Of a stretch of DNA of 64,000 nt, positions 8,748 to 30,721 are shown piece by piece. Under the pieces are notes generated by a model that worked only from the letters and a program-made list of their open reading frames with translations, was not told the origin of the DNA and ran no database searches. How positions within the stretch are numbered: the stretch's first letter is position 1; each line of letters begins with the position of its first letter. Made by a program: the position numbers and the translations under genes. This DNA comes from Pseudonocardia acidicola (GTDB lineage Bacteria > Actinomycetota > Actinomycetes > Mycobacteriales > Pseudonocardiaceae), in the NCBI RefSeq assembly GCF_012911935.1, contig NZ_JAAXLA010000011.1, positions 1 through 64,000 of the forward strand, read 5' to 3'.

Positions 8748-8750
8748 CAC

Positions 8751-8825: not shown

Positions 8826-8840
8826 ACGCCGGCCACGACC

Positions 8841-9564: not shown

Positions 9565-10059
9565 TCAGCCGGCGACAGGGGCGGGTGGCGCCGGCTCCGG
9601 TACGGGCGCCGCCGCCACCGGCGCGGTGGCCATGGCCGCCGTCGGGGTGGCGTTGGCACTGGTCGCGGCGTGTCCCCGGTGCTCCCGCAGCAGCGCGCGG
9701 ACCCGCTTGACCGGCAGGTCGAACAGTGCGGCCAGGTCCTCGGCGCGCCGGCCGAGGGCGTGTAGCTCGGCGAGCACCGTGGTCTGCCGCTGTTCGAGGG
9801 CGGCCAGCGCGGCCGCGGCGTCGTCCCGTACGGCCTGGCGCTGGCGGTCCAGGTCGGCCAGTGCGGCATCCCGGCGGGTGATCACCGCGTCGGCCTCACC
9901 GGCCGCCGTGGCGTAGTCGGCGAGCGCGGCATCCTCGCGCTTGCGTCGCTCGGCCTGCTCGGTGTCGAGCCGGTCCCGCGCCGCGGTGAGCCGCTGCAGG
10001 CGGTCTGCGCCGGCGTCGGAGCGGCGGGCACGGCGCGGCCGGGTGCTGTTGGAAGTCAT
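9565..10059 (-). CDS. Coiled-coil protein with a C-terminal HTH-like segment
   Basis: The 164-residue protein has a long predicted coiled coil (about residues 20-100) rich in Ala, Arg, Glu and Asp. A short segment then reads LGRRAEDLAALFDLPVKRVR, which looks like a sigma-type helix-turn-helix. The tail is proline/alanine-rich and disordered. The family is not recognised. Its place before a NERD protein and the relaxase suggests a role in plasmid maintenance or transfer, by inference only. Confidence 0.6.
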   Translation of the reverse strand: MTSNSTRPRRARRSDAGADRLQRLTAARDRLDTEQAERRKREDAALADYATAAGEADAVITRRDAALADLDRQRQAVRDDAAAALAALEQRQTTVLAELHALGRRAEDLAALFDLPVKRVRALLREHRGHAATSANATPTAAMATAPVAAAPVPEPAPPAPVAG

Positions 10060-14400: not shown

Positions 14401-16003
14401 GCTGCTGCCCGAGGGCTGGATGGACCAGGTGATCGGCGAGACCGGGTACGGGCGGTTGATGCGCACCGTGCGGGAGGCCGAGCTGGCCGGGCACGACCCC
14501 GCCGCGGTGCTGGAAGAGGCGGTGACCGCGCGCGGGCTGGTCGGGGCGGACTCGGTGTCGGACGTGCTGCGGTGGCGGATCCGGAGCCTGACCGGGGACC
14601 GCACCCCCGAGCGGCAGGTCCCCGCCGGGGACTGGGCCGCGCTGACCGTCCCGATGGGCGGGCCGGTCGGGGACTACGCCCGGGTGCTCGCGCAGGTTGC
14701 GACCGCGCGTCAGCGCGAGCTGGGGTGGCGCGCCGCCGAGGAGCTGCCCGCGTGGGCGTTGGAGCACCTCGGCGCGCCCCCCGCCGACCAGCAGCAGCGG
14801 GTTGAGTGGGAGCGCCGCGCCGGCATCGCTGCGGCCTACCGGGACCTGGCCGGGGTCGCCGACACCTCGATCTCGCTGGGGGCGGCGCCGTCGCGGGAGC
14901 AGGTGTTCCACCGCGTGTTGTGGCAGCAGGCCTACGCCGCGCTCGGGGCGCCGACCGACGCGCTGGACTACGCGATGGCCAGCGACAGCGAGCTGCGGGG
15001 GATGCGGGAGGACTACCGGCGCGAGCAGACCTGGGCGCCCTACTACGTGGCCGAGGAACTGCGCGATGCCCGGCTGGCCGCGCAGAGCTACCGGCAGGAC
15101 GCGGTGCTGTGGCGGGCCGAGGCCGAGCAGCTGGCAGCGGGCTCCCCCGAGCGTGCCCAGGCCGACGCCGACCTCGCCCAGGCCGAGCAGCTCGCGGATC
15201 TGTACGCCGCCCGCGCTGAGCACCTAGCCGCCATCAACACCGCCCGCGACCAGTGGTTCCGCGACGCCGCCCCCGCGCGCACCCGGTACGAGATGGCCGG
15301 GGACGAACTGGTCCGCCGCGGCCTGCCTCGGGACCCGCAGCCCACCGTCGGGGAGCAGACCGAGCTGTTCGGCGTCGTCGAGCCCGACGAGACCCCCGCC
15401 CGCCAGCGCGGGCGAGATGTAGAGCCCAACGACACACAGCTGCGGCTCGACCTCGACCTCGACCGCGGCGACGAAACGGTCGCGGACGAGCCCGTCGTGG
15501 TGGTGCGGGCGCCGGCGCAGGGCGAGCCCGCCCCCGGGCAGGAAGCCGGTCGCGACCAGCACGAACACACCGGACCGCGGCCCACGAGGAGCGCCCAGGA
15601 CCTGGATGACGAGTCGTTGCGGCGGGAGGTTGTCGATGAGAACCAGGTTGAGTTTTTCGCCGCCGCCCCCGCCGTGGCCGATGTCGCCGCAGCGGGGCCG
15701 CTGCGCGGCGAGCCGGGCGCAGTGACCGCCCCCGAGCACGGCGCCGGGGCCGGCCCGGTGACCGTCGGGGAGGCCCGTCGGCAGGCCAAGATCAGCGCAG
15801 CACTGCGCGCCGCGCGCGGTCAGGACCCGGAACCGACCGGACGAGTGCAGGACTGGGAGATAGACCGCGATCAGGCCGCAGACCAGCGCGCCGACGCCCA
15901 CCGCAGCCGCGACCACGGCGAAGCCCCCGACCGCAGCCGCGAGCTTACCCTGGACCGCGACCTCGACAAGGACGCCGACATGGGAATGAGGATCGGCTTC
16001 TAG
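11453..16003 (+). CDS. TrwC/TraA-type MobF conjugative relaxase-helicase
   Basis: This 1516-residue protein has the MobF plan. The N-terminal relaxase has candidate nicking tyrosines (Tyr14, Tyr48), and its metal-binding histidines lie in EPQLHSHVAVLN near residue 243. A RecD-like helicase follows with Walker A GPAGAGKSTT near residue 566 and Walker B LFILDEAGM near 640; a late helicase motif reads YAVTDYAAQGLTVD. The last ~200 residues are acidic and disordered. It would nick oriT, stay bound to the 5' end and unwind the strand. GTG start. A coupling protein is encoded at 33-35 kb. Confidence 0.9.
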   Translation: MLTITAVSAGAVDYLLRGSGCAQHAHASSPAEAGVERAVDLDGGGAQYLLASAEHEPAGVWFGAGLEMVGIAPGTQAGEADVRAVFGKLQHPSAVDEDGSPAFLGRRPRQFRSTADRVAARLAAEPDASEERIREISNEVRASGRKPVAYYDLTFSPVKSVSVLHAALLAEGRTADAAKVVGAHREAIAEAMAWAEEQAAYTRSGYHGKTVDGRSVGVYERATGLVWTRWDHSTNRNQEPQLHSHVAVLNRVVTASDGEIRALDGAGFKPIKQGIDALYRSAYERLLGEWLGVVFAQRPDGKAREILGIDQELLAAASGRARQVEANLEVMVREFEATHGRAPSPAQRKAMHHRAWAQDRAAKTHDVSPRRQLDNWAATRRGELRTSLVNAAGHAQHVAEYGHPDQRDYAHRTREEVLAAAVEAVQAQYPTWRLGNLIDEIEKQVRRTPSMVGSYPELANEVLRQGARYGVVAVTAPDPGPVPVALQREDGKSKYRALNDERYTTVDQLATEVGIVARARLTGAPALAGAELELARVELIAAGLGPDQQAAVLGILSSGRCGDVLIGPAGAGKSTTVGALARTWEDRVGGRVIGLATSQAAAMVLADDGVAAVNTTVFLNRFTPDANGNVAERVRPGDLFILDEAGMSSTAELEAISRIVATGGGKLLYTGDHEQLVAVGAGGMLELLARDNGAFELTEVHRFTQEWEREASVRLRAGDESVLDLYETHGRLRGGTRDEMATAAVRGYLADTIAGKESLLIVGRNDEATELSAQIRAELVALGRVAPEVIGTARDGNLIGVGDVIQARRNDWTIRVDGPGMVTNRVTYRVLGRDPFTGALRVADKNGLVAHLPHSYVEQHVTLAYAVTDYAAQGLTVDTGHDLVDIYTRRSSAYPGGTRGRECNTFYVVSVQEPDAHQPERLESTARAVMAQILANADADGTAAELERRTGVEAGRSLAFVGTQWDLLTAEYGRDRYTDTLAGLLPEGWMDQVIGETGYGRLMRTVREAELAGHDPAAVLEEAVTARGLVGADSVSDVLRWRIRSLTGDRTPERQVPAGDWAALTVPMGGPVGDYARVLAQVATARQRELGWRAAEELPAWALEHLGAPPADQQQRVEWERRAGIAAAYRDLAGVADTSISLGAAPSREQVFHRVLWQQAYAALGAPTDALDYAMASDSELRGMREDYRREQTWAPYYVAEELRDARLAAQSYRQDAVLWRAEAEQLAAGSPERAQADADLAQAEQLADLYAARAEHLAAINTARDQWFRDAAPARTRYEMAGDELVRRGLPRDPQPTVGEQTELFGVVEPDETPARQRGRDVEPNDTQLRLDLDLDRGDETVADEPVVVVRAPAQGEPAPGQEAGRDQHEHTGPRPTRSAQDLDDESLRREVVDENQVEFFAAAPAVADVAAAGPLRGEPGAVTAPEHGAGAGPVTVGEARRQAKISAALRAARGQDPEPTGRVQDWEIDRDQAADQRADAHRSRDHGEAPDRSRELTLDRDLDKDADMGMRIGF

Positions 16004-16958: not shown

Positions 16959-17285
16959 TCAGTGCGCACTAGAACCGGTCAGGTTGAGCCCGACGACCCC
17001 GGCGACGATCAACAGGACGGAGGCGACCCGCACGAACTCGGCCGGGTCGCCGAACCAGATCATCCCCGCCAGCGCGGTCCCCACCGCCCCGACACCGGTC
17101 CAGGCGGCGTAGGCGGTCCCCACCGGCAGATCGCGCAGACCGGCCGTCAGGAACGCGAAGCTGATCACCGCACAGGCCACGAACGACACGGTGGGCCACA
17201 GTCGCCGGAACCCCTCGGAGTACTTCAGCGACACGGCGAAGGCAGTCTCGAAGAAGCCGCCGAGGACGACGAACACCCAGGCCAC
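16959..17285 (-). CDS. Small multidrug resistance (SMR) family exporter
   Basis: I choose the GTG at 17285, which follows GGAGG with good spacing; this gives 108 residues, the standard SMR length. There are four membrane helices, with the essential glutamate in helix 1 (GGFFETAFAVSLKYSEGF) and the GTAYAAWTGVGAVGTALAG motif of helix 3. The pattern is closer to SugE/Gdx, which export guanidinium-type cations, than to broad QacE pumps. It lies downstream of the alcohol dehydrogenase on the same strand but beyond a hairpin. Confidence 0.85.
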   Translation of the reverse strand: MAWVFVVLGGFFETAFAVSLKYSEGFRRLWPTVSFVACAVISFAFLTAGLRDLPVGTAYAAWTGVGAVGTALAGMIWFGDPAEFVRVASVLLIVAGVVGLNLTGSSAH

Positions 17286-17382: not shown

Positions 17383-18402
17383 TCACGGCACGAGGACCGC
17401 GCGGCCCCGGACGAGCCCCTTCTCCAGGTCGTCGAACGCCCGGTGGGCCTCAGTGAGCGGGTACGACACGACGTGGGACTGCAGCAGGCCCCGCTCGTAC
17501 AGCGCGATCAGCTCCGTCAGGTCCTGATAGGTGCCGACCATGTTTCCCTGCACCCGGAGCTCCTTGAGCACCAGTTCCATGGTGGGGATGCTGCTGGTGC
17601 CGCCGTAACCGACGGCCGAGTACAAGCCCTGGGCGCCGAGCAGGCTCACGCTCAGGGCCGGGGCGTCCCCCTCACCCACGAAGTCGAAGACCGCGGTGGC
17701 GCCGGCACCGCGGGACGCCTCGGCGACGACCTCCGCGGCATCGTCACCGGCCACGTGGTCGGCGCCGACCGACTTCGCCAGGTCACGAGCCGCCTCCTTC
17801 GGGTCGACCGCGACGATGACGCAGTCGCTCATCGCCCGCAGCATCTGGATGGCCAGGTGGCCGAGGCCACCGCACCCCAGGATGACCGCGACGCTCTCGG
17901 AGGTGAGGTGGGAGACCTCCCGGTGGAGCGCGTGGTAGGCGGTGATGCCGGCGTCGGCCAGCGGGGCGACCTCACGGGTGTCCGTCGTGGACGCGAGCGG
18001 GACGAGCGCCCGCGCGTTCGTCCGCACGAACTGGGCCATCCCGCCGTCCACGGCGAGACCGACGAACTGGCCCTCGACGCAGTGCTGGTCCTCGCCGCGG
18101 CGGCAGGCCCGGCACAGGCCACAGGTCATCAGTGGGTGCAGGACGACCTTGGTTCCGAGGTCGACGCCGCGCGCGCCGGCACCCTTCTGGACCACGACGC
18201 CGGCGACCTCGTGCCCCAGCGTGAACGGTAGCGGGGTCGGGAAGACGTCGGCCAGCTCGCCGTGGACGGCGTGCAGGTCGGTCCGGCAGACGCCGGCGCC
18301 CTCGACCGCGACGATGACGTCGTCGGGGCCCTGCAGGACCGGCTCGGGCACATCGGTGACGGTGGGGATGTGACCGTACTGCTCCAGACGAACGGCGAGC
18401 AT
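17383..18402 (-). CDS. Zinc-dependent NAD(P) alcohol dehydrogenase (MDR family)
   Basis: The ATG at 18402 has an AGGAGA ribosome site; the 339-residue product has normal MDR length. Catalytic zinc residues are seen in GVCRTDLHAVHG and GHEVAG, structural zinc cysteines in CGLCRACRRGEDQHC, and the cofactor-binding loop in GCGGLGHLAIQML. It should oxidise an alcohol or reduce an aldehyde. Placement between an NCS1 transporter and an SMR exporter, in a block with a Rieske oxygenase, suggests it handles an intermediate of the same pathway. The substrate is unknown. Confidence 0.85.
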   Translation of the reverse strand: MLAVRLEQYGHIPTVTDVPEPVLQGPDDVIVAVEGAGVCRTDLHAVHGELADVFPTPLPFTLGHEVAGVVVQKGAGARGVDLGTKVVLHPLMTCGLCRACRRGEDQHCVEGQFVGLAVDGGMAQFVRTNARALVPLASTTDTREVAPLADAGITAYHALHREVSHLTSESVAVILGCGGLGHLAIQMLRAMSDCVIVAVDPKEAARDLAKSVGADHVAGDDAAEVVAEASRGAGATAVFDFVGEGDAPALSVSLLGAQGLYSAVGYGGTSSIPTMELVLKELRVQGNMVGTYQDLTELIALYERGLLQSHVVSYPLTEAHRAFDDLEKGLVRGRAVLVP

Positions 18403-18526: not shown

Positions 18527-20095
18527 TCAGGCGCTCGGGACCCCTTCGGGTCCGTGCGGGGCGGTGGCTTCGGGGGCGGCTAGCGGCGCGGCGCGGTCCG
18601 CAGGGGCGACGCCGGCCGCGGCGGCGAGGTCGACCATCGGGGTCCCCGACGTGGCCGGCAACGCGCGCCCCGGGACGAGCCACAGGAACGCGCCGTAGAT
18701 CAGGAAGGCGACCAGCGCGGCGGACAGGAAGCTGAGGTCGATGCCGCCGGCGGCGTTGCGCCACGGCCCTTCCATCAGCGGCGGGGTATTGGCGAACAGC
18801 AGCCCGAGGACCACCGAGGGCAGCCAGGCCGCCATCGCGTACCAATTGACGCCGCGACGGAACCAGTAGACCCCACCGGTCGTGCCGACGTTGAACACCT
18901 GCAGGTCCTCGGGCACGTAGCGCCCGCGCAGGGCCAGGTGCCCCATCACGTTAATGACCAGCCACGGCGCTGCGATGACCGTGAGCAGGACGGTGAAGGT
19001 CGACACCAGGCTCAGGGCGTCCCAGACGAGGGCGCCCAGGTACACCAGCCCCACCCCGACGACGCTGACCACGACGGTGGCGTTCACCCGGCTCAACCGC
19101 GGGATCAGCGACGAGGTGTCCAGACCGGTGCCGTAGAGGGCCAGCGAGCCCTGACCGAAGCCCCCGAGCAGCCCGATGACGACGATGGGCACCGCGTACC
19201 AGGTCGGCGAGACTTCGACCAGGCCGACGACGAAGTCGGCCGTCCCCGGAGCCATCATGGACGTGAAGAACGCGGCGAAGAGCAGGGCGGACCAGCAGCC
19301 GAAGAAGATGCCGGCACTGCCCCACAGGGCGCCGCGGCGCGCGGCCCGGGCGGGCAGGTACCGGGCGTAGTCGTTGGCGAAGGGGCCGTAGGACAGCGCG
19401 AGCGAGGCCGAGGCGACCATCGAGAGCACCCAGGTCGGCCAGAAGCTCCCGAGCACGTACTCCCCGCCCGCGTAGCCGGGGTCGAAGTCCGGCAGCTCGA
19501 TCAGCACCCCGACGATCAACAGGACCGCGATGAGCGGCGCCATCACCTTCTGGGAGGCCACCAGTGTGGCGTGCCCGATCAGTGCGAGCACGACGGTGAT
19601 CGCGCCGATCAGCCCGTAGGCGGTGGCGAACTCGAGGGTGTCCTGGGGTAGGCCGAACAGCTTGTGGGCGCCCGCGACCACCGCCTGCCCGCCGGTCCAG
19701 ACCGCGAGAGAGTAGAACCCGATCGCGATGACGAGAACGACCAGCGAGCCGATCAGGCGCCCGACGACGCCGAAGAACGCCCCGCTGCTCACCGCGCTGT
19801 TGGTGCCGGTGCGCGGCCCGATCAGCCCGACCGGGCCGAAGAAGGCGGTCCCCAGCAGGGTGCCCACCGTGATGGCCCAGAAGGCCGCCCACCAGCCGAG
19901 CCCGAACAGGATCGGCAGCGCTCCGAGCACGATGGTGCCGAAGCACATGTTCGCGCCGAGGAAGACCGTTCCGATGTCGCGCGGCCGGTCCTGCCGGTCC
20001 TCCAGTGGGACGAAGTCGACCCCCCGGGTCTCGACCCGGCCGACCTCATCGATGGGGGGCCGGTGCGGGGCGTCGTTGCTCACCTGCATCGCCAT
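18527..20095 (-). CDS. NCS1-family permease (nucleobase/cation symporter)
   Basis: The ATG at 20095 gives 522 residues and about twelve membrane helices. The N-terminal region GANMCFGTIVLGALPILFGL and the segment GLIGPRTGTNSAVSSGAFFG match the NCS1 pattern of cytosine, uracil, hydantoin, allantoin or thiamine transporters. The C-terminal ~40 residues are disordered and alanine-rich. It lies downstream of the ferredoxin, reductase and Rieske genes on the same strand, so uptake of a nitrogen heterocycle or related compound for that pathway is a reasonable inference. Confidence 0.85.
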   Translation of the reverse strand: MAMQVSNDAPHRPPIDEVGRVETRGVDFVPLEDRQDRPRDIGTVFLGANMCFGTIVLGALPILFGLGWWAAFWAITVGTLLGTAFFGPVGLIGPRTGTNSAVSSGAFFGVVGRLIGSLVVLVIAIGFYSLAVWTGGQAVVAGAHKLFGLPQDTLEFATAYGLIGAITVVLALIGHATLVASQKVMAPLIAVLLIVGVLIELPDFDPGYAGGEYVLGSFWPTWVLSMVASASLALSYGPFANDYARYLPARAARRGALWGSAGIFFGCWSALLFAAFFTSMMAPGTADFVVGLVEVSPTWYAVPIVVIGLLGGFGQGSLALYGTGLDTSSLIPRLSRVNATVVVSVVGVGLVYLGALVWDALSLVSTFTVLLTVIAAPWLVINVMGHLALRGRYVPEDLQVFNVGTTGGVYWFRRGVNWYAMAAWLPSVVLGLLFANTPPLMEGPWRNAAGGIDLSFLSAALVAFLIYGAFLWLVPGRALPATSGTPMVDLAAAAGVAPADRAAPLAAPEATAPHGPEGVPSA

Positions 20096-20229: not shown

Positions 20230-20490
20230 TTAGTCGGCCGGGCTCGGCGGCGCGGCACTGCCGGCGGCGGCGTCGGCCGTGCCGCCGCCGTCACCGGGAC
20301 CCGCGATCCACCGGATGGCCCGCACGGGGCAGTCGGCGATCGCTTCGGAGACCGCCTCGACGTCGGCCTCGGTCACGTCGACGACCAGCGCCTGCGCGAA
20401 TCCCCAGTCGTCGAGGGTGAAGTGGCGGGCCGCTATCTCGGTGCAGATGGCGTAGCCCTGGCACTTGACGGGATCTACACGCAGTCTCAT
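20230..20490 (-). CDS. Ferredoxin of the 3Fe-4S type
   Basis: The ATG at 20490 overlaps the stop of the NuoF-like gene (ATGA), so the two are translationally coupled. The 86 residues contain Cys10, Cys16 and Cys54 in the pattern C-x5-C...CP, which holds a 3Fe-4S cluster; the residue in the usual second-cysteine place is absent. Such ferredoxins commonly serve P450s in actinobacteria. Here no P450 is present, and the nearby Rieske oxygenase is the probable acceptor, by inference. The alanine/proline tail is disordered. Confidence 0.85.
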   Translation of the reverse strand: MRLRVDPVKCQGYAICTEIAARHFTLDDWGFAQALVVDVTEADVEAVSEAIADCPVRAIRWIAGPGDGGGTADAAAGSAAPPSPAD

Positions 20491-21854
20491 CGAGCACCCA
20501 TCACGGTCGGCACGAGCTCGGCGGCTCGCGGGTCGGTCGGTTCGCCGGTCGGTTCCGGCAGGGTGACGACGAGATGCGCCCATCGCGGGTCGCTCTCGAC
20601 CCGGCGACACCGGTCGCACCCGGTGGCGATGTGCCGCGACACCGTCTGCGGGTGGTGGCGCAGGAGAGCGCGCAGCAGCACGGCGATCGCGTCCGGCACG
20701 GCGCAGGCGCCGCGGCCGCGCAGCTGGGCGGCCCACCGCGGGAGCAGCGCCGCGTAGTTGGGGGCGGGGCGGGGATCGCCCAGCTCGGCGAGGGCGGCGG
20801 CGATCGCGGTGGACGAGGCCATGCACATGCCGCACTGCCCCGCGTTGTGCTTGGCGTAGAACGCGATCACGTCGGCGGTGATCGCGACGGGGCATGCAGG
20901 CTGCTCGAGGAGGTGTAGGGAGCCGCAGCCCAGGCCGGCGCCCCGGCGCGCGACGCCGGGGTGGCTGAGCTCCAGGTCGGGCCAGGCCGGGATGACCCCG
21001 CCGAAGAAGCCTCCGATGAGCACGTCGAGGCTGGAGTCCTGGCGGCCCAGGTGCTCACGGAGCAGGTCTCCCAACGGAAACCCGGTGGGCAGCTCGTACA
21101 GGATCGGCGGCCGACCGGCCCCGGAGACCGTGGCGAGGAAGGTCGCGCCTGCCTCCTGCCCGCCGGGCTGACCGGCCCGCGCGATGCATGCCAGCGTCTC
21201 CACGTTGAGCACGAGCGTGGGCGCCCCCCGCACACCCACCTGGAACGGGCGGGGTGGTTTGTCGGTGGGGCGGGCGATGCCGGTGGTCAGGGCCCGCACC
21301 ACGGCGGTCTCCTCACCGGCGACGTAGGTGTCCTGCGCCGCGAAGACGTGCACCTGGGTCGCCGGGTTGGAGTCCCCGAGCTCGGCCAGAGCGGTCTCGA
21401 CCGCAGCCCGGGCCGCCGCGTCGGCCACATAGACGTAGGCCTCGGGTGCGCCGAGGGCTGCGGCGACGGTGAGCAACCCGTCCAGCACCAGATGCGGGCG
21501 GTAGCGCATGAGATAGCGGTCCTTGACGCTGAGCGGTTCGCCCTCCGCGCCGTTGGCGACCACCACAGGCGGGCTCGGCGCCGTGACAGCGCCGCGCGCG
21601 ACCGCCCGGATCTTCGTCAGCGCCGAGAAGGCCGCTCCCCCGCGTCCCCGCAACGCGGGCATCCCGGGCGCGGCGGCAAGTCGGTCAAGGAGATCGGCGG
21701 CCCCCGCATCGCGGGCCGGATAGCCACCGATGCGCGCGTAGGCGTCATGGGTCTCCCGGACGAACGGTGCGGGTCCGAGGAGCCCGCTGTCGTCCCCACG
21801 CCAGGAGCGGACCTCGTGCAGGGCGAACCGGGAGGACAGGGGATCCACGACCAT
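20487..21854 (-). CDS. NuoF-like NADH-dependent FMN/iron-sulfur oxidoreductase
   Basis: This 455-residue protein has the complex I NuoF motifs: RGRGGAAF (NADH site), VVANGAEGEPLSVKDRYLM (FMN site), YVAGEETAV and LVLNVETLACIAR. The C-terminal cluster region reads GQCGMCMASS near residue 338: two cysteines of the NuoF CGxCxxC motif are kept, but the third is replaced by serine. Further cysteines occur in RGACAVP and TGCDRC. No NuoE or NuoG is nearby. Coupled to a ferredoxin, it probably passes electrons from NADH to ferredoxin. Confidence 0.8.
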   Translation of the reverse strand: MVVDPLSSRFALHEVRSWRGDDSGLLGPAPFVRETHDAYARIGGYPARDAGAADLLDRLAAAPGMPALRGRGGAAFSALTKIRAVARGAVTAPSPPVVVANGAEGEPLSVKDRYLMRYRPHLVLDGLLTVAAALGAPEAYVYVADAAARAAVETALAELGDSNPATQVHVFAAQDTYVAGEETAVVRALTTGIARPTDKPPRPFQVGVRGAPTLVLNVETLACIARAGQPGGQEAGATFLATVSGAGRPPILYELPTGFPLGDLLREHLGRQDSSLDVLIGGFFGGVIPAWPDLELSHPGVARRGAGLGCGSLHLLEQPACPVAITADVIAFYAKHNAGQCGMCMASSTAIAAALAELGDPRPAPNYAALLPRWAAQLRGRGACAVPDAIAVLLRALLRHHPQTVSRHIATGCDRCRRVESDPRWAHLVVTLPEPTGEPTDPRAAELVPTVMGAR

Positions 21855-21945
21855 GGGGGGCTGACCCTTCGACGAACTTCGACGGAAGCGGTGCCGGTCG
21901 GTCGACCGGTGGAGTGGGGGAGCAGGGCGGCCGCGGGTCCGCTCT

Positions 21946-21976
21946 CGGCCCGGGAAACGGGGCGTGTCCCGGGCCG
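21946..21976. terminator. Perfect 10-bp inverted repeat
   Basis: CGGCCCGGGA (21946-21955) pairs with 21967-21976 around an 11-base loop. It lies just past the stop of the 22008-22475 gene and before the NuoF-like start, so it may separate or attenuate the two parts of the minus-strand block. Confidence 0.6.
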
Positions 21977-22007
21977 GGCTGGGTCGATCCGCGACGACCG
22001 GTACCGA

Positions 22008-22475
22008 TCAGTCCGGGAAGGAGAACTGACCGGTGCCCTCGATGAACCCCATGACGCGGACCGGCTCGCCGGTGGTCACGGAGTCACCACTACGGGCCGT
22101 GCCGAACTCCAGGTCGATCGACACCGTGCCGGTGACGCCCTTCCACGGGCCCGTGCCGCCGTCGACGGTCAACGTGCCCTTGTCGCGCCCGTCCTCGATG
22201 AACCAGTCGACGTGCCCGATCAGCAGTTCGTCGGTGTGCATGTCCTCCAGGCGCACCGCGCCGTAACCGCGCGGGACCGAGCCGTCCGGGGCGACCTCGT
22301 CCTGCCCGGTGAACAGGGTGCGGAAGTAGGTCGGGGACTCCGAGCCCGCGACGACGAGCTTCGTGACGAGATCGGCCTCGTAGCCGACGGTCCTGTGGTC
22401 GCTGCCGCGCAGTGGAACCTGCCGGCCCCACTGTGCGAAGCCACCCGAGATCCACGTGACCTCACGCTGAGTCAT
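22008..22475 (-). CDS. Uncharacterised protein, possibly a small beta-barrel
   Basis: The 155-residue product lacks a signal peptide. It alternates short strands and has GTLTVDGGTGPWKGVTGTVS followed by IDLEFGTA, a glycine-turn repeat that recalls allene-oxide-cyclase or dirigent-type barrels; this resemblance is weak. Its start is 74 bp from the Rieske stop on the same strand, so it probably belongs to that unit. It could be a small isomerase, a lipocalin-like carrier or an NTF2-like partner. Confidence 0.55.
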   Translation of the reverse strand: MTQREVTWISGGFAQWGRQVPLRGSDHRTVGYEADLVTKLVVAGSESPTYFRTLFTGQDEVAPDGSVPRGYGAVRLEDMHTDELLIGHVDWFIEDGRDKGTLTVDGGTGPWKGVTGTVSIDLEFGTARSGDSVTTGEPVRVMGFIEGTGQFSFPD

Positions 22476-22502
22476 GTCCGGGTTTTCCTTTCGATCGGTC
22501 GT

Positions 22503-22553
22503 CCGCCGGGACACGGGCCGCACCCGGCGGCTGAGCGGAGCAGCCGCGCTCAG
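22503..22553. terminator. Two adjacent hairpins after the Rieske oxygenase gene
   Basis: CCGCCGGG (22503-22510) pairs with 22523-22530. Immediately next, CTGAGCG (22531-22537) pairs with 22547-22553, which overlaps the Rieske stop codon. They could reduce read-through to the downstream small gene, setting unequal expression. Confidence 0.4.
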
Positions 22554-23764
22554 TCCTGCGCGGGCAGCCGGGAGGCCAGGTACTTCTGGAGCTGCCAGAG
22601 CGGCTGCTCGTGGGTCTGCAGGACGCCGTCCGTGGCGTAGCGCGACTTCGACGACGACTGCACGGCCTCGTTGACGCTGGCGTCCTGGGCCTGCACGAGC
22701 TTCAGGAAGTCGGTCGCTTCCTTCATCTTCGCGTCGAAGTCCTCGGCGCCGAGGTTCTCCTTCGGCACCAGCAGGTGGATCTCGAGACGGTGGGTCTCGG
22801 GGCCCGTCGGCAGCGAGCGGAACCAGAACGTGATGTCCGGGCCGGGCGCACACAGATAGGCGGGGAACTTCGCGAGCAGCAGCGTGTGCGACCGCTGGAA
22901 CGCACTCAGCCCCTGCTTGGCCGGCAGGAACAGCGGGTGCAGCAAGTGGCCGTCCTCCTCGCCGATCGCCACCTCGGCGCCGGCCATCATGCGGGAGTAG
23001 TAGAAGTCGGGACCGGTGAGATGGCCCTGCTGGCACTTACCGAGGCGCCACAGCGGCTGCAGCACGTTCTTGTGGATGCCGATGTGGTGGTAGACCTCAA
23101 GGAAGTTCTCCACGACGATCTTCCAGTTGACCCTGGACTCGCCCCAGTCGATGACCGAGGCGATCTCCCAGTCGGTGAGGTCGTAGCCGTCCTGGATCTC
23201 CGCGACGGTGGTCATGTCGAACGGGATGTCGGTGTCGTCGTCGAGGTTGACGAAGACGAATCCCTGCCAGATCTCGGTGCGGATCTCGCGCAGACCGTTG
23301 GCGTTCTTGTCGAAGCCGGGCCGCCCCGACATCTCCGGCGCGCTGAGCAGGCTGCCGTCGAGCCGGTAGATCCACGCGTGATACGGGCACTCGAACCGGG
23401 CCACGCAGCCGCTGACCCGTTCCTCGTCGGTGCGCTCACCACCCATCAGGTCGGCGTAGCGGTGCCGACAGACCCGGGAGAAGACCCGGACCTGCTCGTC
23501 GTTGCCGCGCACGACGATCAACGGCTCCCCCGCCAGGTCGATCGCCCGGTAGCTGCCCTTGTCAGGCACCTCCTCGACCCGGGCGATGCAGATCCAGTCC
23601 TTGCGGAAGATGTGCTCGAGTTCGTAGGAGTAGAACTCCGGGTCCCAGTAGGCACGGGCCGGCAGCGCGCGGCTCTCCTCCAGGGGCAGAGCGGCCTGCT
23701 CGCCGATCCGCCGCACCAGCTCCCGCACCCCGTCCGTCGTCGGGCGGCTCAGAACCTCAGTCAC
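22550..23764 (-). CDS. Rieske non-heme iron oxygenase, alpha subunit
   Basis: I choose the GTG at 23764, after a GGCAGG ribosome site, giving 404 residues. The Rieske ligands are Cys99, His101, Cys126 and His129, in CRH and CPYHAW. The 24 residues between His101 and Cys126 exceed the usual 15-18. The mononuclear iron site is NWKIVVENFLEVYHHIGIH. It should hydroxylate or demethylate a small substrate using two electrons, probably from the NuoF-like protein and ferredoxin downstream. No beta subunit gene is present, so it is likely an alpha-only enzyme. Confidence 0.85.
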   Translation of the reverse strand: MTEVLSRPTTDGVRELVRRIGEQAALPLEESRALPARAYWDPEFYSYELEHIFRKDWICIARVEEVPDKGSYRAIDLAGEPLIVVRGNDEQVRVFSRVCRHRYADLMGGERTDEERVSGCVARFECPYHAWIYRLDGSLLSAPEMSGRPGFDKNANGLREIRTEIWQGFVFVNLDDDTDIPFDMTTVAEIQDGYDLTDWEIASVIDWGESRVNWKIVVENFLEVYHHIGIHKNVLQPLWRLGKCQQGHLTGPDFYYSRMMAGAEVAIGEEDGHLLHPLFLPAKQGLSAFQRSHTLLLAKFPAYLCAPGPDITFWFRSLPTGPETHRLEIHLLVPKENLGAEDFDAKMKEATDFLKLVQAQDASVNEAVQSSSKSRYATDGVLQTHEQPLWQLQKYLASRLPAQD

Positions 23765-23879: not shown

Positions 23880-24908
23880 TCAGGGCATGAGCAGGCCCTC
23901 GCGGATGGCGCGGGCCACGGCACCGGAGCGTGAGCCCACCGCGAGCTTCTCCATCACGCGCTCCACGTGAGCCCGTACGGTCCGCGTGGTGACGACGAGC
24001 TCCGCGGCGATCTCGTCGTTGGTGCTCCCGGCCGCCAGGTGGGTGAGGACCTCGAGCTCCCGGCGCGTGAGCCGGTGGCGTTGTTCGCAGCCGGTCATGG
24101 TGAGGACGACGATCCCGTCGCGGCAGCGCAGCAGTCGGCAGCTGTACCAGGCGCCCTCGTCGTCCAGCCAGGTGAACGGGGTGTCCGCCGACCGCCCGCG
24201 GGCCAGGCGGTCCGCCGCCTGCCGCAACCGCGATCCGCGGTCCAGCAGGTCCGGCGGGGCCGCGCCCCGTAGTGGTGCAGTGGTGCCGTCCGGCAGGATC
24301 GCGACGGCCGTCTGCTCGTCGCCGAGCACGGAGGCCAGCCGGCGCGCGTCGCCGAGCGGGTCCACCAGATTGCTGAGCAGAGCGGCGACGTGCCCGATGG
24401 ACGTGATGGCCTCGTCCGACGGCGGGGTCCGGGCGTCGTCCACCGACATGATCAGGAACCCGACGTCGCGGTCGTCGTCGACCGTCAGTGTCATCAGCAG
24501 GCCCTCCGGGTAGCCCGCGGGGCGGAGGTGCTCGGCGATCGGCCGCAGTGACAGCGGGTCCATCGGCAGATCGCACTCGCGCATGGGCCACCCCCGCAAG
24601 CTGTGCGCGAAGGGCTCGATCATCTCGGTCCGGAAGCCGTCCCCGATCATGTACTCCGACAGGCGCGCCGGGTACCCGGACTGGACGACCTCCCGGGTCC
24701 GGCCGCTGACCGGGTCGGTTCCGGCGAGCATCACCGCCTGGTACGGCACGACCGTGCGGAGTTCGTCGAGGATCAGCTGGACCCGGTCCTCCACACGCGC
24801 ACCGGAGGCGCCGACCGCGGCGATCCTGGCGACCGTCCGCAGGGCCGGTTCGCCGAGCGTGGTCCAGACGCGGCGGGGTACGACGGAAGTCGACACCGGC
24901 GTGTCCAT
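23880..24908 (-). CDS. LuxR-family transcriptional regulator with GAF-like sensor
   Basis: The 342-residue protein has an N-terminal GAF-type region (about 25-190) and a C-terminal LuxR helix-turn-helix, LTRRELEVLTHLAAGSTNDE continuing to TVRAHVERVMEKL. There is no receiver domain. It lies 115 bp upstream of the Rieske gene on the same strand, so it probably controls that catabolic block in response to a small effector. An imperfect palindrome upstream is described separately. Confidence 0.85.
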   Translation of the reverse strand: MDTPVSTSVVPRRVWTTLGEPALRTVARIAAVGASGARVEDRVQLILDELRTVVPYQAVMLAGTDPVSGRTREVVQSGYPARLSEYMIGDGFRTEMIEPFAHSLRGWPMRECDLPMDPLSLRPIAEHLRPAGYPEGLLMTLTVDDDRDVGFLIMSVDDARTPPSDEAITSIGHVAALLSNLVDPLGDARRLASVLGDEQTAVAILPDGTTAPLRGAAPPDLLDRGSRLRQAADRLARGRSADTPFTWLDDEGAWYSCRLLRCRDGIVVLTMTGCEQRHRLTRRELEVLTHLAAGSTNDEIAAELVVTTRTVRAHVERVMEKLAVGSRSGAVARAIREGLLMP

Positions 24909-25049: not shown

Positions 25050-25628
25050 TCAGAGCACATGGGCGAGCGGATGGCCGGCCAGCCGCCCCCGGTCGAACAC
25101 CCAGCGTTGCCGGGCCTCGTCCCAGGCCCAGGCCCGGGTGGTCAGCGCGAGCGTGAAGAAGCCGAACAGCTCCGCCAGCGAGGGCACCGACGGCGGTGCC
25201 GGCGTGACCCTGGCCATCCGCAGCACGGTCACCCCGCTGTCCGGACCGGGATCAGCGTGGCAGTCCACGGCGAGGATGTAGCCGTTGCCGGCCCGGAACA
25301 GCGGCAGCCAGCCGGGTCCCCACACGCCGTCGGCGTCGTCGGGTTCGCCCCCGAACTCCTCGCACGCCATCGCGCGCCGCACCTCTCGCTCCGCCAGGGC
25401 CCCACTCAACGACAGCGGCAGCCAGTGCCCGATCAGCCACGGCGCCAGCACCCGGGAGGTGGGCGCGACGCCGTCGTGCCGGCGCAGGTAGGCCCGGACC
25501 TCGGCCGGCAGCACCAGCCCGGACGGGCGGAGCAGTTCCTCGATCTCCGCGTCGCTGCGCCCCGGGGCGAACCGCTGCTCACCCAGTACAGCGGTGAGGG
25601 CACTGTCGAGTGCCTCGAGACTGGTCAC
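25050..25628 (-). CDS. SMI1/KNR4 (SUKH) family protein
   Basis: The 192-residue protein has the SUKH pattern: an N-terminal acidic helix (SDAEIEELLRPSGLVLPAEV), then RAYLRRHDGVAP, later WGPGWLPLFRAGNGYILAVD. SUKH proteins often act as immunity proteins for contact-dependent or other toxins. No toxin gene is adjacent, so an orphan immunity or regulatory role is possible. It starts with GTG and points away from the divergent TetR gene, 130 bp apart. Confidence 0.75.
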   Translation of the reverse strand: MTSLEALDSALTAVLGEQRFAPGRSDAEIEELLRPSGLVLPAEVRAYLRRHDGVAPTSRVLAPWLIGHWLPLSLSGALAEREVRRAMACEEFGGEPDDADGVWGPGWLPLFRAGNGYILAVDCHADPGPDSGVTVLRMARVTPAPPSVPSLAELFGFFTLALTTRAWAWDEARQRWVFDRGRLAGHPLAHVL

Positions 25629-25758: not shown

Positions 25759-26532
25759 ATGACGATGGCAGGGACCGGCAGCTCGGCCTCCGCCCGCCGG
25801 CCACTGGGCCGCCCCCGCCGCGACGGCTCCCCGCCGGCCGGACCGGTGCCCGACGTGATCGTGACGGCCGCCGCGAAGCTCTTCACCGAGCAGGGCTACG
25901 CGGCCACGACGATGACTCAGATCGCCCGGGCGGCCGGGCTGCGCCAGTCCTCGCTGTACTACTGGTTCAGCCGCAAGGAGCAGATCCTGCAGGCGGCCCT
26001 CACGGTCAACCGGCTGGCTCTGACCCACGCCTCGGTGGTGGCCGCCGGCGACGGGACACCGGGGCTCCGGCTCTTCCGGCTGCTGCGCTACGACACCCTC
26101 CAGCTCTGCCTGTCCCCGTGGGATTTCACCGAGATCGAGCAGCTCGCCGAGGCGCAACCCGACGACTTCGCCGACTTCTGGCGCGACTACGACGCGCTGG
26201 TCCGCCATGTGGCCGGTCACATCCGTGACGGCATCGCCTCCGGGGAGTTCCGGACGTGCGATGCGGAGCTCGCGGCGATGACCGCCCTCACTCTCAACGA
26301 GGGCCTGCAGAAGCGCTACCGGGCGCAGTCCCGGCACGGATCCGGCGAGAACCCGTTCTCACACGCACCACACGCGGCGGCCGAGTACGCCCTCACCAGC
26401 GCATCCACGACCCTCGCAGCGCTGAGCCGACGCCCGTCGACGGTCCCGCGTCTGGCCGCGAGGGCGGCGGCGCTCGATCCCGTCGCCGACACGCTGCGCC
26501 CTGAGCCGCCGCGGCCGCCGAACTCGACGTGA
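25759..26532 (+). CDS. TetR-family transcriptional regulator
   Basis: The DNA-binding domain (about residues 30-80) reads IVTAAAKLFTEQGYAATTMT, then QIARAAGLRQSSLYYWFSRK, the classical TetR helix-turn-helix. The C-terminal ligand domain is of normal size and unassigned. Total 257 residues. Two starts are possible, 25759 or 25765. It converges with the ferredoxin oxidoreductase gene, whose stop lies 63 bp away, and diverges from the SUKH gene. Confidence 0.85.
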   Translation: MTMAGTGSSASARRPLGRPRRDGSPPAGPVPDVIVTAAAKLFTEQGYAATTMTQIARAAGLRQSSLYYWFSRKEQILQAALTVNRLALTHASVVAAGDGTPGLRLFRLLRYDTLQLCLSPWDFTEIEQLAEAQPDDFADFWRDYDALVRHVAGHIRDGIASGEFRTCDAELAAMTALTLNEGLQKRYRAQSRHGSGENPFSHAPHAAAEYALTSASTTLAALSRRPSTVPRLAARAAALDPVADTLRPEPPRPPNST

Positions 26533-26595: not shown

Positions 26596-29500
26596 TCAGG
26601 TGCGCGCGACCCCGCGGTCCCGGTCTGCCAGCTCCGCCAGCGCGGCCGCCGCGCGGACCCGGAACCGCTCCACGCCGGCGAGCTTGACGTCCTCGTAGCC
26701 GCGGACGAGGTCGGGCAGCTCGGCGATCGCCGTCACCGCGTCGACGGTGTCGGCCCGGAGGTGGGTGAGCGCCGCCTGGACCAGGCCCTGGTACTCGGCG
26801 ATGAGCGTCCGCTCGATCCGGCGGACCCGGGCGTAGCCGAAGACGTCGAGCCGGGTGCCGCGGACCGCCCGCGCGGCGCGCAGGACCCGGAACGTCAGCT
26901 CGGCGGAGCGGTGCAGCCGCAGCTTGCGCTTCATGCCCAGGGCCCGCAGCACCGGCGGGTGCAGCAACACCGAGACGGTGGCGTCCGGGCCGTACTCGTC
27001 GTGCAAGCGTGCCTGTTCCACGGTGTCGAGGTGCAGCCGGGCGACCTCGTACTCGTCTTTGTAGGCCATGAGCTTGTGCAGGCCGCGGGCGTAGGCGATG
27101 GCGATCCGGTCGCCGTCCGCGGCTGCGACCTGTGTCCGTGCCAGCGTGGCCACCCGGCGGATCTCGTCGGCGTAGCGCTGCGCGTAGGCCTCGTCCTGGT
27201 AGCCCACCAGATCGGCCACCCGGGTGGCGAGGACCGTGTGCAGCGCGCCGGTCGCGCCGGTCGCCGCGGTGATCGTCCGTGCCGAGGCTCCGATCTCGAC
27301 GGTCGGCCGGGGCGTCGGGACGGTGGCCGCCGCGACGGCCCCCGGGTCCACGACGGCCGTGCGTCCCCAGCGGAAGGCGGTCAGGTTGAGCTCGACCGCG
27401 GCACCGTTCAGCCGGACGGCCTGCTCGATCGCCTCGGCGCTCAGCGGGAGACATCCGTGCTGGTAGGCCGCACCCACTAGCACCATGTTGGCCGGCATGT
27501 GATCGCCGAACACCGCCTCGGCGATGCCCTGGGAGTCGAGGTACAGGTTGGCCGCGGCCGCGGTGGCCCGTTCGATGCGCTCGATCGCCTCGTCCGGTGA
27601 GCCCGGCAGTGGGACGCGGTGGGTCACCATCGCGGCGGTCGGCACCACGGCGGTGTTGACGACGGCGATCGTGCGACCGGGCACGGCGACGTCGAGATTG
27701 GACTCGGCGGCGGCGCCGAGCAGGTCGAACCCGAGCAGGACGTCGACGGTCCCGGTGGAGGCGCGCAGGGCGCCGGCCACGGGCTGCTTGGAGATCCGTA
27801 CGTCGCTGATGACCGGTCCGCCCTTCTGTGCCAGGCCGGTCTGGTCCAGGCCCGCGGCGTGCAGGCCGTCGAGGTGTGCGGCCATCTGCAGGATCTGCGA
27901 CGTCGTGACCACACCGGTGCCTCCGATCCCGGGCATCCGCAGCAGGGTGTCGTCGCCCGTGAGCTGCGTCGTCGGCGCCGGCAACTCCACGGCCGGTAGC
28001 TCGATCTCGCGGTGCCGGCGCGGTCCGGGCTCGACGAGCAGGAACGACGGGCAGTCGCCCTTCAGACAGGTGAGATCGGAGTTGCAGGACGCCTGGTGGA
28101 TGCGGGTCTTGCGGCCGAACTCGGTGTCCACGGGCTGCACCGACAGACACGTCGACTTGTCCCCGCAGTCCCCGCAGCCCTCGCAGACCCGTTCGTTGAT
28201 CACGACCCGCTCGGCCGGGGTGGGTAGCACGCCCCGCTTGCGCAGCCGGCGCTCCTCCGCGGCGCAGCGGTCGTCGTGGATCAGCACCGTGACCCCGTCC
28301 ACGGTGGATAGTTCGTGCTCGGCCTCGGCGAAGTCGTCCCGGTGCCGGACGGTCGCGACGGCGTGCAGCGTCTGCCCGCGGTAGTCGTCGGGCTCGGCCG
28401 TCGTGATGATCACGCGTCGGACGCCCTCGGCCGCGAGCCAGCGGGTCAGCGTCGGGATGTCGAGGCGGCCTTCGGCCCGCTGGCCGCCCGTCATCGCCAC
28501 CGCGTCGTTGTAGAGCAGCTTGTAGGTGATGGTGACTTCGGCGGCGACCGCGGCCCGGACGGCCAGCGACCCGGAGTGGTGGAACGTGCCGTCGCCGAGG
28601 TTCTGCACGAAGTGCCGGTCGGCGGTGAACGGCGCCAACCCGAACCACTGCGCGCCCTCTCCGCCCATCTGCGTGATCCCGATCCGGCGGCCCCGGCCGG
28701 CACCGTCGAGGGCGACCATCGCATGGCAGCCGATGCCGGCGCCGACCAGCGTGTCGTCCGAGGTCCGGGTCGAGGTGTTGTGCGGGCACCCCGAGCAGAA
28801 GTACGGCGTCCGGGACGCCACCATCGGCAGGTCGATGCGGGAGCGCCGCTGCGGGCTCACCGCCTGAAGGTGGAGTGCCGCCCGGCGTGGCAGCCGGTCG
28901 GCCCCGATGCGCGCACCCAGGGCCCGCGCGACCTCCTCGGCGCTCAGCGTCCCGCGCGCCGTGAGCAGCGGACGGCCGCGCTCGTCGCGGCGCCCCACGA
29001 CGACCGGGGCGCCGTCCCGGCGGTACAGCGCCTCCTTGAGCTGCCCCTCCAGGAACGGCGTCTTGTCCTCCACGACCAGGACCTGCTCGAGGTCCCCGGT
29101 CATCGCCGCCAGCTCGTCGTGGTCGGCCGGGAACGGCATCGCGAGGCGGATCAGGCGCAGACCGAGATCCTCCATGACTGCCTCGTCGATGCCCAGGTCC
29201 TCCAGCGCCCGCAACACGACGGCGTAGGAGGTGCCGGCGGCGATCACGCCGAACCGCGCGGTGCGGGCCCCGAAGGCGACCGTGTTCAACCCGGCGGAGC
29301 GGGCGTAGGCGCGGGCGAGGTCGAGACGGCGGGTGAGCATGTCGTGCTCGGCGTCCAGTGACGCCGCGCCGAGGAGCGTGGGCGGCGCGCCCCGGTCCAC
29401 CCGCTCCGGCACCGGGACACCGTGCCGTAGCGCTCCGACGTCGATGGTCGCGGACGCGTCGGCGATGTCGGCGACGATCTTCAGTCCGGTCCACAGACCG

Positions 29501-30084
29501 GTCGCTCGGGAGAGCGCGACGGCGTGCAGTCCGAACTCGACGATCTCGGCGACAGAACCGGGGGCGAGCAGCGGCATCGAGAGGCTCTGGCACATCGGCT
29601 CGCACGAGCTGGGGATCGTGGAGGACTTGCTGCCCGGGTCGTCGCCGATCCACGCGACGAGCCCGCCGAGCGCGGCCGTGCCCGCCACGTTCGCGTGCCG
29701 GATCGCGTCGGCGGCGCGGTCGAGCCCGGGGTTCTTGCCGTACCAGAATCCCGTGACGCCGTCGTGGCGGCGGCCGGGGACCTGGCCCAGCAGCTGCGTC
29801 CCGGCGACCGCGGTCGCCGCGAGCTCCTCGTTCAGCCCGGCCTGGAACACGACACCGGCCGGGCCCAGGAAGCGGGCCGCGCGTCCCATCTCCGTGTCGA
29901 CGCCACCCAGGGGCGAGCCCTGGTAACCACTGACGAAGACCCGGGTGTCGAGACCCCGCGACTCGTCGAGCCGGCGCTGTTCGAGGGTCAACCGCACCAG
30001 CGCCTGCACGCCGGAGATGAGGACGCTGCCGCGGTCGGCGGTGTACTTGTCGTCCAGGGACACGGTGGTGAGGGGGGTGCCCAC
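26596..30084 (-). CDS. Fused indolepyruvate ferredoxin oxidoreductase
   Basis: The GTG at 30084 has an AAGGAG ribosome site and gives 1162 residues, normal for the fused alpha/beta/gamma form. The N-terminal pyruvate-oxidoreductase part has VSGYQGSPLGGVDTEM; the TPP-binding part carries FCSGCPHNTSTR and GIGCHAM. A cysteine-rich segment (VCEGCGDCGDKSTC, later CNSDLTCLKGDCPSF) binds 4Fe-4S clusters. The C-terminal part (MPGIGGTGVVTTSQILQMAA) is the gamma domain. It oxidatively decarboxylates aryl pyruvates to acyl-CoA, reducing ferredoxin. Confidence 0.9.
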   Translation of the reverse strand: MGTPLTTVSLDDKYTADRGSVLISGVQALVRLTLEQRRLDESRGLDTRVFVSGYQGSPLGGVDTEMGRAARFLGPAGVVFQAGLNEELAATAVAGTQLLGQVPGRRHDGVTGFWYGKNPGLDRAADAIRHANVAGTAALGGLVAWIGDDPGSKSSTIPSSCEPMCQSLSMPLLAPGSVAEIVEFGLHAVALSRATGLWTGLKIVADIADASATIDVGALRHGVPVPERVDRGAPPTLLGAASLDAEHDMLTRRLDLARAYARSAGLNTVAFGARTARFGVIAAGTSYAVVLRALEDLGIDEAVMEDLGLRLIRLAMPFPADHDELAAMTGDLEQVLVVEDKTPFLEGQLKEALYRRDGAPVVVGRRDERGRPLLTARGTLSAEEVARALGARIGADRLPRRAALHLQAVSPQRRSRIDLPMVASRTPYFCSGCPHNTSTRTSDDTLVGAGIGCHAMVALDGAGRGRRIGITQMGGEGAQWFGLAPFTADRHFVQNLGDGTFHHSGSLAVRAAVAAEVTITYKLLYNDAVAMTGGQRAEGRLDIPTLTRWLAAEGVRRVIITTAEPDDYRGQTLHAVATVRHRDDFAEAEHELSTVDGVTVLIHDDRCAAEERRLRKRGVLPTPAERVVINERVCEGCGDCGDKSTCLSVQPVDTEFGRKTRIHQASCNSDLTCLKGDCPSFLLVEPGPRRHREIELPAVELPAPTTQLTGDDTLLRMPGIGGTGVVTTSQILQMAAHLDGLHAAGLDQTGLAQKGGPVISDVRISKQPVAGALRASTGTVDVLLGFDLLGAAAESNLDVAVPGRTIAVVNTAVVPTAAMVTHRVPLPGSPDEAIERIERATAAAANLYLDSQGIAEAVFGDHMPANMVLVGAAYQHGCLPLSAEAIEQAVRLNGAAVELNLTAFRWGRTAVVDPGAVAAATVPTPRPTVEIGASARTITAATGATGALHTVLATRVADLVGYQDEAYAQRYADEIRRVATLARTQVAAADGDRIAIAYARGLHKLMAYKDEYEVARLHLDTVEQARLHDEYGPDATVSVLLHPPVLRALGMKRKLRLHRSAELTFRVLRAARAVRGTRLDVFGYARVRRIERTLIAEYQGLVQAALTHLRADTVDAVTAIAELPDLVRGYEDVKLAGVERFRVRAAAALAELADRDRGVART

Positions 30085-30280
30085 GAGGTGCTCCTTCGGG
30101 TCGTGCACGTTCCGGGGGGTGTGCGACAGCACACCGCCGCGCTTTCCGAGCACGCAAGTACCTATCGGGAGTTCGGCCGCAAGAGGCAATTCTCGATTGA
30201 TTTCAGTCCGCAACAGCGATATTTCTTGCGTGGTTGGGCCCTGCCGAGCCTCGGTCAGGGCGGCGACAGGAGGCCCCGGC
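30085..30280. promoter_or_regulatory. Divergent promoter region between the oxidoreductase and Lrp genes
   Basis: This 196-bp spacer separates two divergent starts and contains a patch of lower GC content (30170-30235, with ATTCTCGATTGATTTCAG and GATATTTCTTG). The adjacent Lrp-type regulator very probably binds here to control both genes; no perfect palindrome stands out, as is common for Lrp sites. Confidence 0.5.
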
Positions 30281-30721
30281 ATGTCCGTCGACGTCGATGC
30301 GATCGACCACTCCCTGCTGCGACTGCTGAGGCAGGACGGCCGGCGTACCTACTCGGAGATGGCCGAGAAGGTCGGCCTGTCCGTCGCCGCGGTCAAGCGC
30401 CGCGTCGACCGACTCCGCGAGATCGGGGTGATCACCGGGTTCACCGTCGAGATCGACCACGCCAAGCTCGGCTGGGGCATCGAGGCGTTCACCGAACTGC
30501 GCTACCTGGGTACCACCGGGGTCGAGGAGATCGTCCGGTCCGCGTCGATGCTGCCGGAGGTGCAGGCGGTGTTCACCGTGGCCGGCGAGTCCGACGCGCT
30601 CATCTGGCTGCGGGTGCGCGACATGGCCCACCTCAAGCAGGGCATCGACCATCTGAGGCGCACCGGGAACGTCACCGGCACGAAGACGATGATGATCCTC
30701 GGGTCCTGGATCCGGGACTGA
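30281..30721 (+). CDS. Lrp/AsnC-family transcriptional regulator
   Basis: The ATG at 30281 follows AGGAGG and yields 146 residues, the usual length. The N-terminal helix-turn-helix reads DHSLLRLLRQDGRRTYSEMA, then GLSVAAVKRRVDRLREIGVI; the rest is the RAM ligand domain (VQAVFTVAGESDALIWLRV). It is divergent from the indolepyruvate ferredoxin oxidoreductase and probably activates or represses it in response to an aromatic amino acid. Confidence 0.9.
   Translation: MSVDVDAIDHSLLRLLRQDGRRTYSEMAEKVGLSVAAVKRRVDRLREIGVITGFTVEIDHAKLGWGIEAFTELRYLGTTGVEEIVRSASMLPEVQAVFTVAGESDALIWLRVRDMAHLKQGIDHLRRTGNVTGTKTMMILGSWIRD

Follow-up and report, generated by a model that had tools for sequence, protein, structure and literature searches.

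A NuoF-like flavoprotein and a [3Fe-4S]-type ferredoxin as a candidate electron supply for a Rieske oxygenase of Pseudonocardia acidicola

On the minus strand of a 64,000-nucleotide stretch of the Pseudonocardia acidicola genome (positions 1 to 64,000 of contig NZ_JAAXLA010000011.1, here C22; the whole stretch is called the window), an operon encodes, in order, a LuxR-type regulator, a Rieske oxygenase alpha subunit, a 155-amino-acid protein, a NuoF-like flavoprotein, a ferredoxin, an NCS1 permease, a zinc alcohol dehydrogenase and a small membrane protein. The Rieske gene (22550 to 23764, with a GTG start at 23764) matched Rieske (E 1.9e-17; 63.4 bits, cut-off 20.3) and Ring_hydroxyl_A (E 9.1e-22; 78.4 bits, cut-off 24.9), both above the curated cut-offs. 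The NuoF-like gene (20487 to 21854), whose FMN/NADH flavoprotein product is the candidate reductase, matched Complex1_51K (E 1e-32) and NADH_4Fe-4S (E 1.9e-10). The ferredoxin gene (20230 to 20490) encodes a single-cluster protein with a CX5CXnC motif of the [3Fe-4S] type and matched Fer4_15 (E 1.1e-9) and Fer4_13. A reading made from the sequence alone had assigned these three proteins to these positions, in agreement with the Pfam matches, and had proposed that the NuoF-like and ferredoxin genes are coupled; they overlap by 4 nucleotides. Gene content and conserved neighbourhoods suggest that the NuoF-like protein, together with the ferredoxin of the overlapping gene, very probably forms the chain that carries electrons from NADH to the Rieske oxygenase of the same operon.

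The sequence-only reading also held that the NuoF-like protein is the sole reductase nearby, and this was borne out: the window has no FNR-type (FAD_binding_6) or GR-type (Pyr_redox_2) matches. None of the genome's 10 FAD_binding_6 matches falls on C22, and of its 84 Pyr_redox_2 matches, the nearest on this contig lies at 70627, outside the window. As had also been claimed, no NuoE- or NuoG-type domain occurs among the 37 window proteins scanned, all of which lie from 17.4 kb onward.

The nearest solved structure to the alpha subunit is carnitine monooxygenase 6y9c (E 8.2e-30, residues 33-231), and carnitine and glycine betaine monooxygenases are its named sequence relatives. It scored under the cut-off of every NCBIfam family among the matches listed, including the equivalog for the glycine betaine monooxygenase GbcA (144.9 bits; cut-off 670). 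For the ferredoxin, the motif CQGYAIC...CP fits, at the level of the motif, the CX5CXnC key given for [3Fe-4S] ferredoxins in a classification of Rieske oxygenases (Kweon, 2008; PMC2358900). Its nearest solved relative is 4id8 (E 2.3e-5), and the ferredoxin-CYP143 fusion 8amq was a weak match (E 0.0057).

The Rieske, NuoF-like and ferredoxin genes recur together. A pattern scan of contigs from 84,980 species returned six relatives (L008-L013). Two loci from Pseudonocardia (L008, L009) and two from Blastococcus (L010, L011) keep the order LuxR-Rieske-small protein-NuoF-ferredoxin, and Geodermatophilus ruber (L012) has small protein-NCS1-Rieske-NuoF-ferredoxin; the Anaerolineales locus (L013) groups on the complex I/formate dehydrogenase side. 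When the Rieske protein served as the query, matches came from 2 of 298 genomes in the order (E 1e-50), 7 of 62 in the genus (E 1e-40), 5 of 6 individually chosen entries (E 1e-30) and 5 of 112 genomes in the family to which G878 belongs (E 1e-60); the listed loci that were new to the set were added to it. The three genes occur together in L008-L011, in L148 (where the NuoF frame is broken), in L197 (Rieske-small protein-NCS1-NuoF-ferredoxin) and on the Rhodococcus opacus plasmid pR1CP1 (L142; Rieske-NCS1-NuoF-ferredoxin, with no small protein or LuxR gene found), whose Rieske protein is 61% identical to that of the window. The PLSDB table does not list the L142 ferredoxin, and translation places it directly after the NuoF-like protein. 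Since NuoF and ferredoxin are whole in L008-L011, L142 and L197, a pseudogene or artefact was set aside. Ring_hydroxyl_A matches number 17 in the genome (7.16 Mb, 165 contigs), 5 of them on C22; by arithmetic, one is expected within 4 kb of a random gene in ~2% of cases genome-wide, and more often on C22. The grouping of the three genes is more than chance.

A tree of 31 Rieske rows revealed a change of partner between sister clades. The window protein and its seven nearest rows (at least 59% identity) have a NuoF-like gene on the same strand within three genes in 8/8 cases, one with a broken NuoF frame. In the sister clade (38-41% identity), the gene found on the same strand within three genes is instead an FNR-type reductase (5/5), and all five reductases combine FAD_binding_6, NAD_binding_1 and Fer2. 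Support was 99/99 for the joint clade, 100/96 for the FNR clade and 100/100 for the NuoF clade. From the tree, the split looks like a reductase swap. P. acidicola itself has one of the five FNR-clade loci, which lies on contig C6 and adjoins another Rieske operon of the NuoF type (L044). Within a single genome, two oxygenases of the same family are thus paired with different reductase genes. NuoF-like and ferredoxin genes also lie near other Rieske lineages (L044_12/L012_8; the alpha-plus-beta systems L143, L153 and L208; L133/L207), and the starred branches of the tree require the NuoF label to have been gained or lost at least three times. In L132 and L134, the Rieske and NuoF-like genes lie on opposite strands; in L151, they are five genes apart.

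In the chain that we propose, electrons would pass from NADH to FMN, then through a modified N3-like cluster to the single-cluster ferredoxin, and on to the Rieske [2Fe-2S] cluster and the mononuclear iron. The NuoF-like protein and ferredoxin would fill the slot held by the FNR-type [2Fe-2S] reductase in the sister oxygenase group.

Several observations weigh against such a chain. A shared neighbourhood would be no proof of direct reduction, and the FAD_binding_6 and Pyr_redox_2 proteins encoded elsewhere in the genome could be borrowed by Rieske oxygenases. In L148 (G641, 8315-9916), the broken NuoF frame, either an assembly error or a real loss, stands beside an intact, nearly identical Rieske gene (reported 100%). 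The Rieske relatives L181-L183 (29-32% identity) and L194 have neither partner nearby. The remaining points come from a survey of NuoF-like loci; these were the best-ranked entries of similarity lists, not a random sample, and include several near-copies. With the genome's own NuoF added, 91 labelled NuoF-like genes gave 87 tree rows, after removal of fragments shorter than 330 amino acids (L059_8, L073_11, L144_9), the frame-split L148_8 and the over-long L079_8. The midpoint root separates the complex I/formate dehydrogenase types; L166_7, on the complex I side, is counted in neither of the groups below. Neighbours were labelled with custom profiles instead of Pfam, unless a domain scan was made, and the label "MsrQ-like" draws on these profiles, on plasmid annotations ("ferric reductase-like") and on an eLife paper (PMC8238504). 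Among the 81 stand-alone rows, 51 form a clade (100/99) found beside six-helix ferric-reductase-like (MsrQ-like) proteins and/or ApbE, here called the membrane clade. The other 30, our second clade, comprise 15 rows with Rieske, 8 with P450 and 7 other neighbours; 29 are joined at 91/84, with L150 beside them. A Rieske alpha gene lies within five genes in 1/51 membrane-clade rows versus 15/30 second-clade rows, and 12 of these 15 have it on the same strand within three genes. In 16 later rows (16 places taken from 54 genomes with a match, with L199 the same place as L197), it lies within five genes in 5, of which one is a duplicate and two are on the other strand.

The outcome that the sequence-only reading had named as counter-evidence, a pair found mostly without an oxygenase, is thus seen in the family as a whole. 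It is not seen in the window's own NuoF-like clade, in which 9/9 rows are Rieske-associated (100/95). The window protein has no membrane or ApbE neighbour within three genes and was placed outside the 51-row clade. The P450 link of the second clade is mostly loose: a P450 adjoins the pair in L149 and is six genes off in seven other rows, and P450 genes also stand next to three membrane-clade rows (L077, L078, L082). Of the seven "other" rows, two (L045, L152) are cut off by the end of a contig; in the remaining five, a gene for a short protein with a Rieske-like motif lies no more than four genes away. Such a protein also occurs in 13/16 of the later rows. From its neighbourhoods, the NuoF-like/ferredoxin pair appears to be a general module. 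It could be an actinobacterial NADH:ferredoxin reductase for several acceptors (Rieske, P450, MsrQ-like), with its location reflecting pathway regulation more than a dedicated partnership; we regard this as rather unlikely, although two large clades with different partners, the 15 second-clade rows lacking a Rieske alpha gene and the P450 neighbours all favour it. The five NuoF-like/ferredoxin pairs in the P. acidicola genome have different neighbours (Rieske genes for two and membrane systems for another two, while the fifth lies where a contig ends), which suggests dedicated copies, and the uniformly Rieske-associated nine-row clade also argues against a general reductase. The conserved co-occurrence and the FNR/NuoF exchange support the earlier proposal of a distinct electron supply for this oxygenase; the pair as such is not specific to oxygenases.

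Alternatively, a reductase from elsewhere in the genome, or some other supplier of reduced ferredoxin, could serve the oxygenase, and the NuoF-like protein and ferredoxin would then play a different role in the pathway; we consider this improbable. Further reductases are present in the genome, and a gene of the indolepyruvate ferredoxin oxidoreductase (IOR) family at 26596-30282 (1333 bits; cut-off 816) lies ~3 kb from the Rieske gene, with an 86.5% IOR-family relative beside the operon in L009. However, the examined stretches of L008, L010, L011, L142, L148 and L197 contain no IOR-family relative and have a NuoF-like gene each time, and the exchange of FNR for NuoF between sister clades also speaks against an outside source. 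As just one relative lies beside the operon, we set the IOR-family protein aside as the electron source. NuoF-type proteins are bidirectional in other systems, and the pair might run in reverse, taking electrons from reduced ferredoxin to make NADH during substrate catabolism. This is very unlikely, as the near loci share no ferredoxin-reducing step but do share an electron-consuming oxygenase.

A NuoF-like protein that passes electrons from NADH to the oxygenase would do so with an altered cluster site. The sequence-only reading took its motif, CGMCMAS, to lack the third cysteine. Alignment to complex I corrects this, as it is the first Cys of the C-x2-C-x2-C trio of the N3 site that is replaced, by Ala338, while C341, C344 and C384 are kept. 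The first N3 cysteine occurs in 5/5 complex I/formate dehydrogenase rows versus 0/81 stand-alone rows. Its loss is a trait of the stand-alone family sampled, which rules out a defect of this single protein. The window protein shares 26.8% identity with the NuoF encoded on contig C101 of the same genome and, at 153.8 bits, did not reach the cut-off of the NuoF equivalog TIGR01959 (558.65). Position 310 is Cys in 30/30 second-clade rows, 0/51 membrane-clade rows and 0/5 complex I/formate dehydrogenase rows; among the rows added later, it is Cys in 15/16 (one row a duplicate) and Asn in the remaining one. By this distribution, C310 is a trait of the branch, with or without an oxygenase neighbour. 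We hypothesize that C310 completes the N3-like cluster as the fourth ligand. The predicted NuoF structure was too poor to inform on this ligand (mean pLDDT 54, below 50 over residues 274-346). Each position of a C-terminal CxxC (413/416) is kept in 26/30 second-clade rows, and G70-G73, K81, N101, E104, E106, P107, G180-E182 and N217 (30/30) and E219 (28) form what we take to be the FMN/NADH site. An adjoining CX5C-type ferredoxin was called in 29/30 second-clade rows, the thirtieth being that of L142. The middle residue of CX5C is Tyr or Phe in 28/29 second-clade ferredoxins versus His in 34/41 membrane-clade ones.

These patterns make the NuoF-type chain a candidate further type of electron supply for Rieske oxygenases. 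A fuller version is possible but somewhat doubtful: a further type of Rieske system, with several origins, in which a complex-I-derived reductase replaced FNR or GR, and in which the N3-like cluster lost its first cysteine and gained the upstream C310 (in an LGCG segment) as a fourth ligand in the NuoF-like branch that would feed soluble enzymes rather than membrane systems. The published classification describes five types of Rieske oxygenase with reductases of the FNR or GR type only, notes that reductase genes can stand apart from the oxygenase gene, and in its main text uses neither "NuoF" nor "complex I" (Kweon, 2008; PMC2358900). Its type V (oxygenase, [3Fe-4S] ferredoxin and GR-type reductase) resembles the window system in its Rieske alpha subunit and CX5CXnC ferredoxin, whereas the window has a NuoF-type reductase (FMN/Fe-S, complex I family) and no beta subunit gene was seen beside the oxygenase. 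In its types I-III, the reductase is of the FNR type; none lies beside the window gene, and FNR- or GR-type reductases encoded elsewhere in the genome may still serve the oxygenase. The FNR-type systems of the sister clade share the small protein and mostly the LuxR gene with the window operon; they have an FNR + Fer2 reductase where the window has a NuoF-like protein and a separate ferredoxin. With the NuoF of complex I, the window protein shares the FMN/NADH core and three of the four N3 cysteines, but it lacks the first, and its operon lacks NuoE and NuoG.

A NuoF-like NAD-binding protein also occurs in MsrQ-like flavinylation systems, which the 51-row membrane clade matches; in the clusters reported there, 31 have NuoF-like proteins and 1437 a PF00175 NAD-binding domain (eLife, 2021; PMC8238504). 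These clusters thus provide a published precedent for a NuoF-like protein where an FNR-type domain otherwise stands. The window protein differs from this branch in belonging to the other clade, in having no such membrane gene within three genes, and in its C310. Among the matches listed from the open-licence PMC literature, no report paired a NuoF-type protein with a Rieske oxygenase, which does not imply absence from print.

The LuxR-type gene at the head of the block (23880-24908; GerE, E 5.3e-17) is a direct neighbour of the Rieske gene in five loci (L008-L011, L148); in L142 and L197, no LuxR gene was seen on the Rieske strand up to five genes away. The NCS1-family (cytosine/purine/allantoin) permease (18527-20095; Transp_cyt_pur, E 2.2e-52), which probably serves in substrate uptake, has full-length relatives in L008, L010, L011, L012, L044, L142, L148 and L197 and is a 64-amino-acid remnant in L009. 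The zinc alcohol dehydrogenase (17383-18402; ADH_N, E 1e-25, and ADH_zinc_N, E 2.7e-21, scanned from an upstream start at 18450), probably the next catabolic step, has relatives in L008-L012, L044, L148, L197, L193 and L198; none was found in L142. The small membrane protein at the operon end (16959-17285), multidrug-resistance-like by sight, has relatives in L008-L011 and L148.

The 155-amino-acid protein (22008-22475) is predicted to form an eight-stranded beta-barrel resembling allene oxide cyclase and dirigent proteins (pLDDT 90). VIA-align of the model gave Z 13.1 to 2q03, ~10-11 to dirigent, allene oxide cyclase and PloI4 structures, and 10.1 to PodA (5k21). A Foldseek ranking with MHC chains on top (TM-scores 0.1-0.17) was set aside. 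The protein has no sequence relative in the PDB at E 1 and, scanned with an upstream extension, no Pfam or NCBIfam match at 0.01. In 5/5 FNR-type rows it stands no more than three genes from the Rieske gene, with LuxR on the same strand in 4/5; it is absent beside L142. As it accompanies NuoF-type and FNR-type Rieske genes alike, the small protein tracks the oxygenase and not the kind of reductase. In L044 (G000:C6, 4410-14918), the FNR-type and NuoF-like/ferredoxin operons lie side by side in opposite orientation, each with its own small barrel protein.

With low confidence, we propose that the substrate is probably a nitrogen-containing heterocycle, because the operon has an NCS1 permease, AllG genes (encoding an oxamate carbamoyltransferase subunit) lie near the operons in L044 and L193, and a gene named as a tetramethylpyrazine oxygenase subunit lies near L142. 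The substrate would enter through the permease, and its hydroxylated product would pass to the zinc dehydrogenase.

Further observations concern the surroundings. Upstream of LuxR lies a SUKH/SMI1-like gene (25050-25628), to which genes in L008-L011 and L148 are related at 64-88%; a TetR gene (25759-26532) has relatives in L009, L142 and L197. An EutA-like gene (43806-45314) lies downstream of an NMT1-type ABC transporter. The window holds two more Rieske oxygenases (51115-52368 and 63081-63998), which have LigB-type genes and alpha/beta-hydrolase genes around them, and an FMN_red protein is encoded at 54690-55280. The operon is flanked by a long relaxase-looking protein (11453-16003, by sight) and a TraD/TraG-type coupling protein (33070-34803); because of these, the operon may ride on a conjugative element. 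The Rhodococcus copy is on a plasmid. In L143, L153 and L208, which comprise two genomes and one plasmid from a Rhodococcus of a quinoline-degrading bioreactor, NuoF-like and ferredoxin genes accompany a Rieske oxygenase of two subunits and a gene of the isochorismatase family, which is annotated as such in L143 and recognized by resemblance in L153 and L208. A common block from several families of the order (L122-L131, L200-L204, L206, L207, L209-L214) holds NuoF-like and ferredoxin genes together with those for two proteins that look like amidohydrolases and for a short one bearing a Rieske-like motif; some loci add a protein that by sight resembles alpha/beta-hydrolases, and sometimes a P450 follows further on.

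Rieske oxygenases are classed by their electron-supply partners, and a NuoF-type reductase, if true, would add a type. It could account for actinobacterial Rieske genes that seem to have no reductase and would offer a ready-made redox module for expressing Rieske oxygenases. The FNR/NuoF split between sister oxygenases would be a natural swap experiment, and the switch at Cys310 raises the question of how an N3-type cluster is re-ligated.

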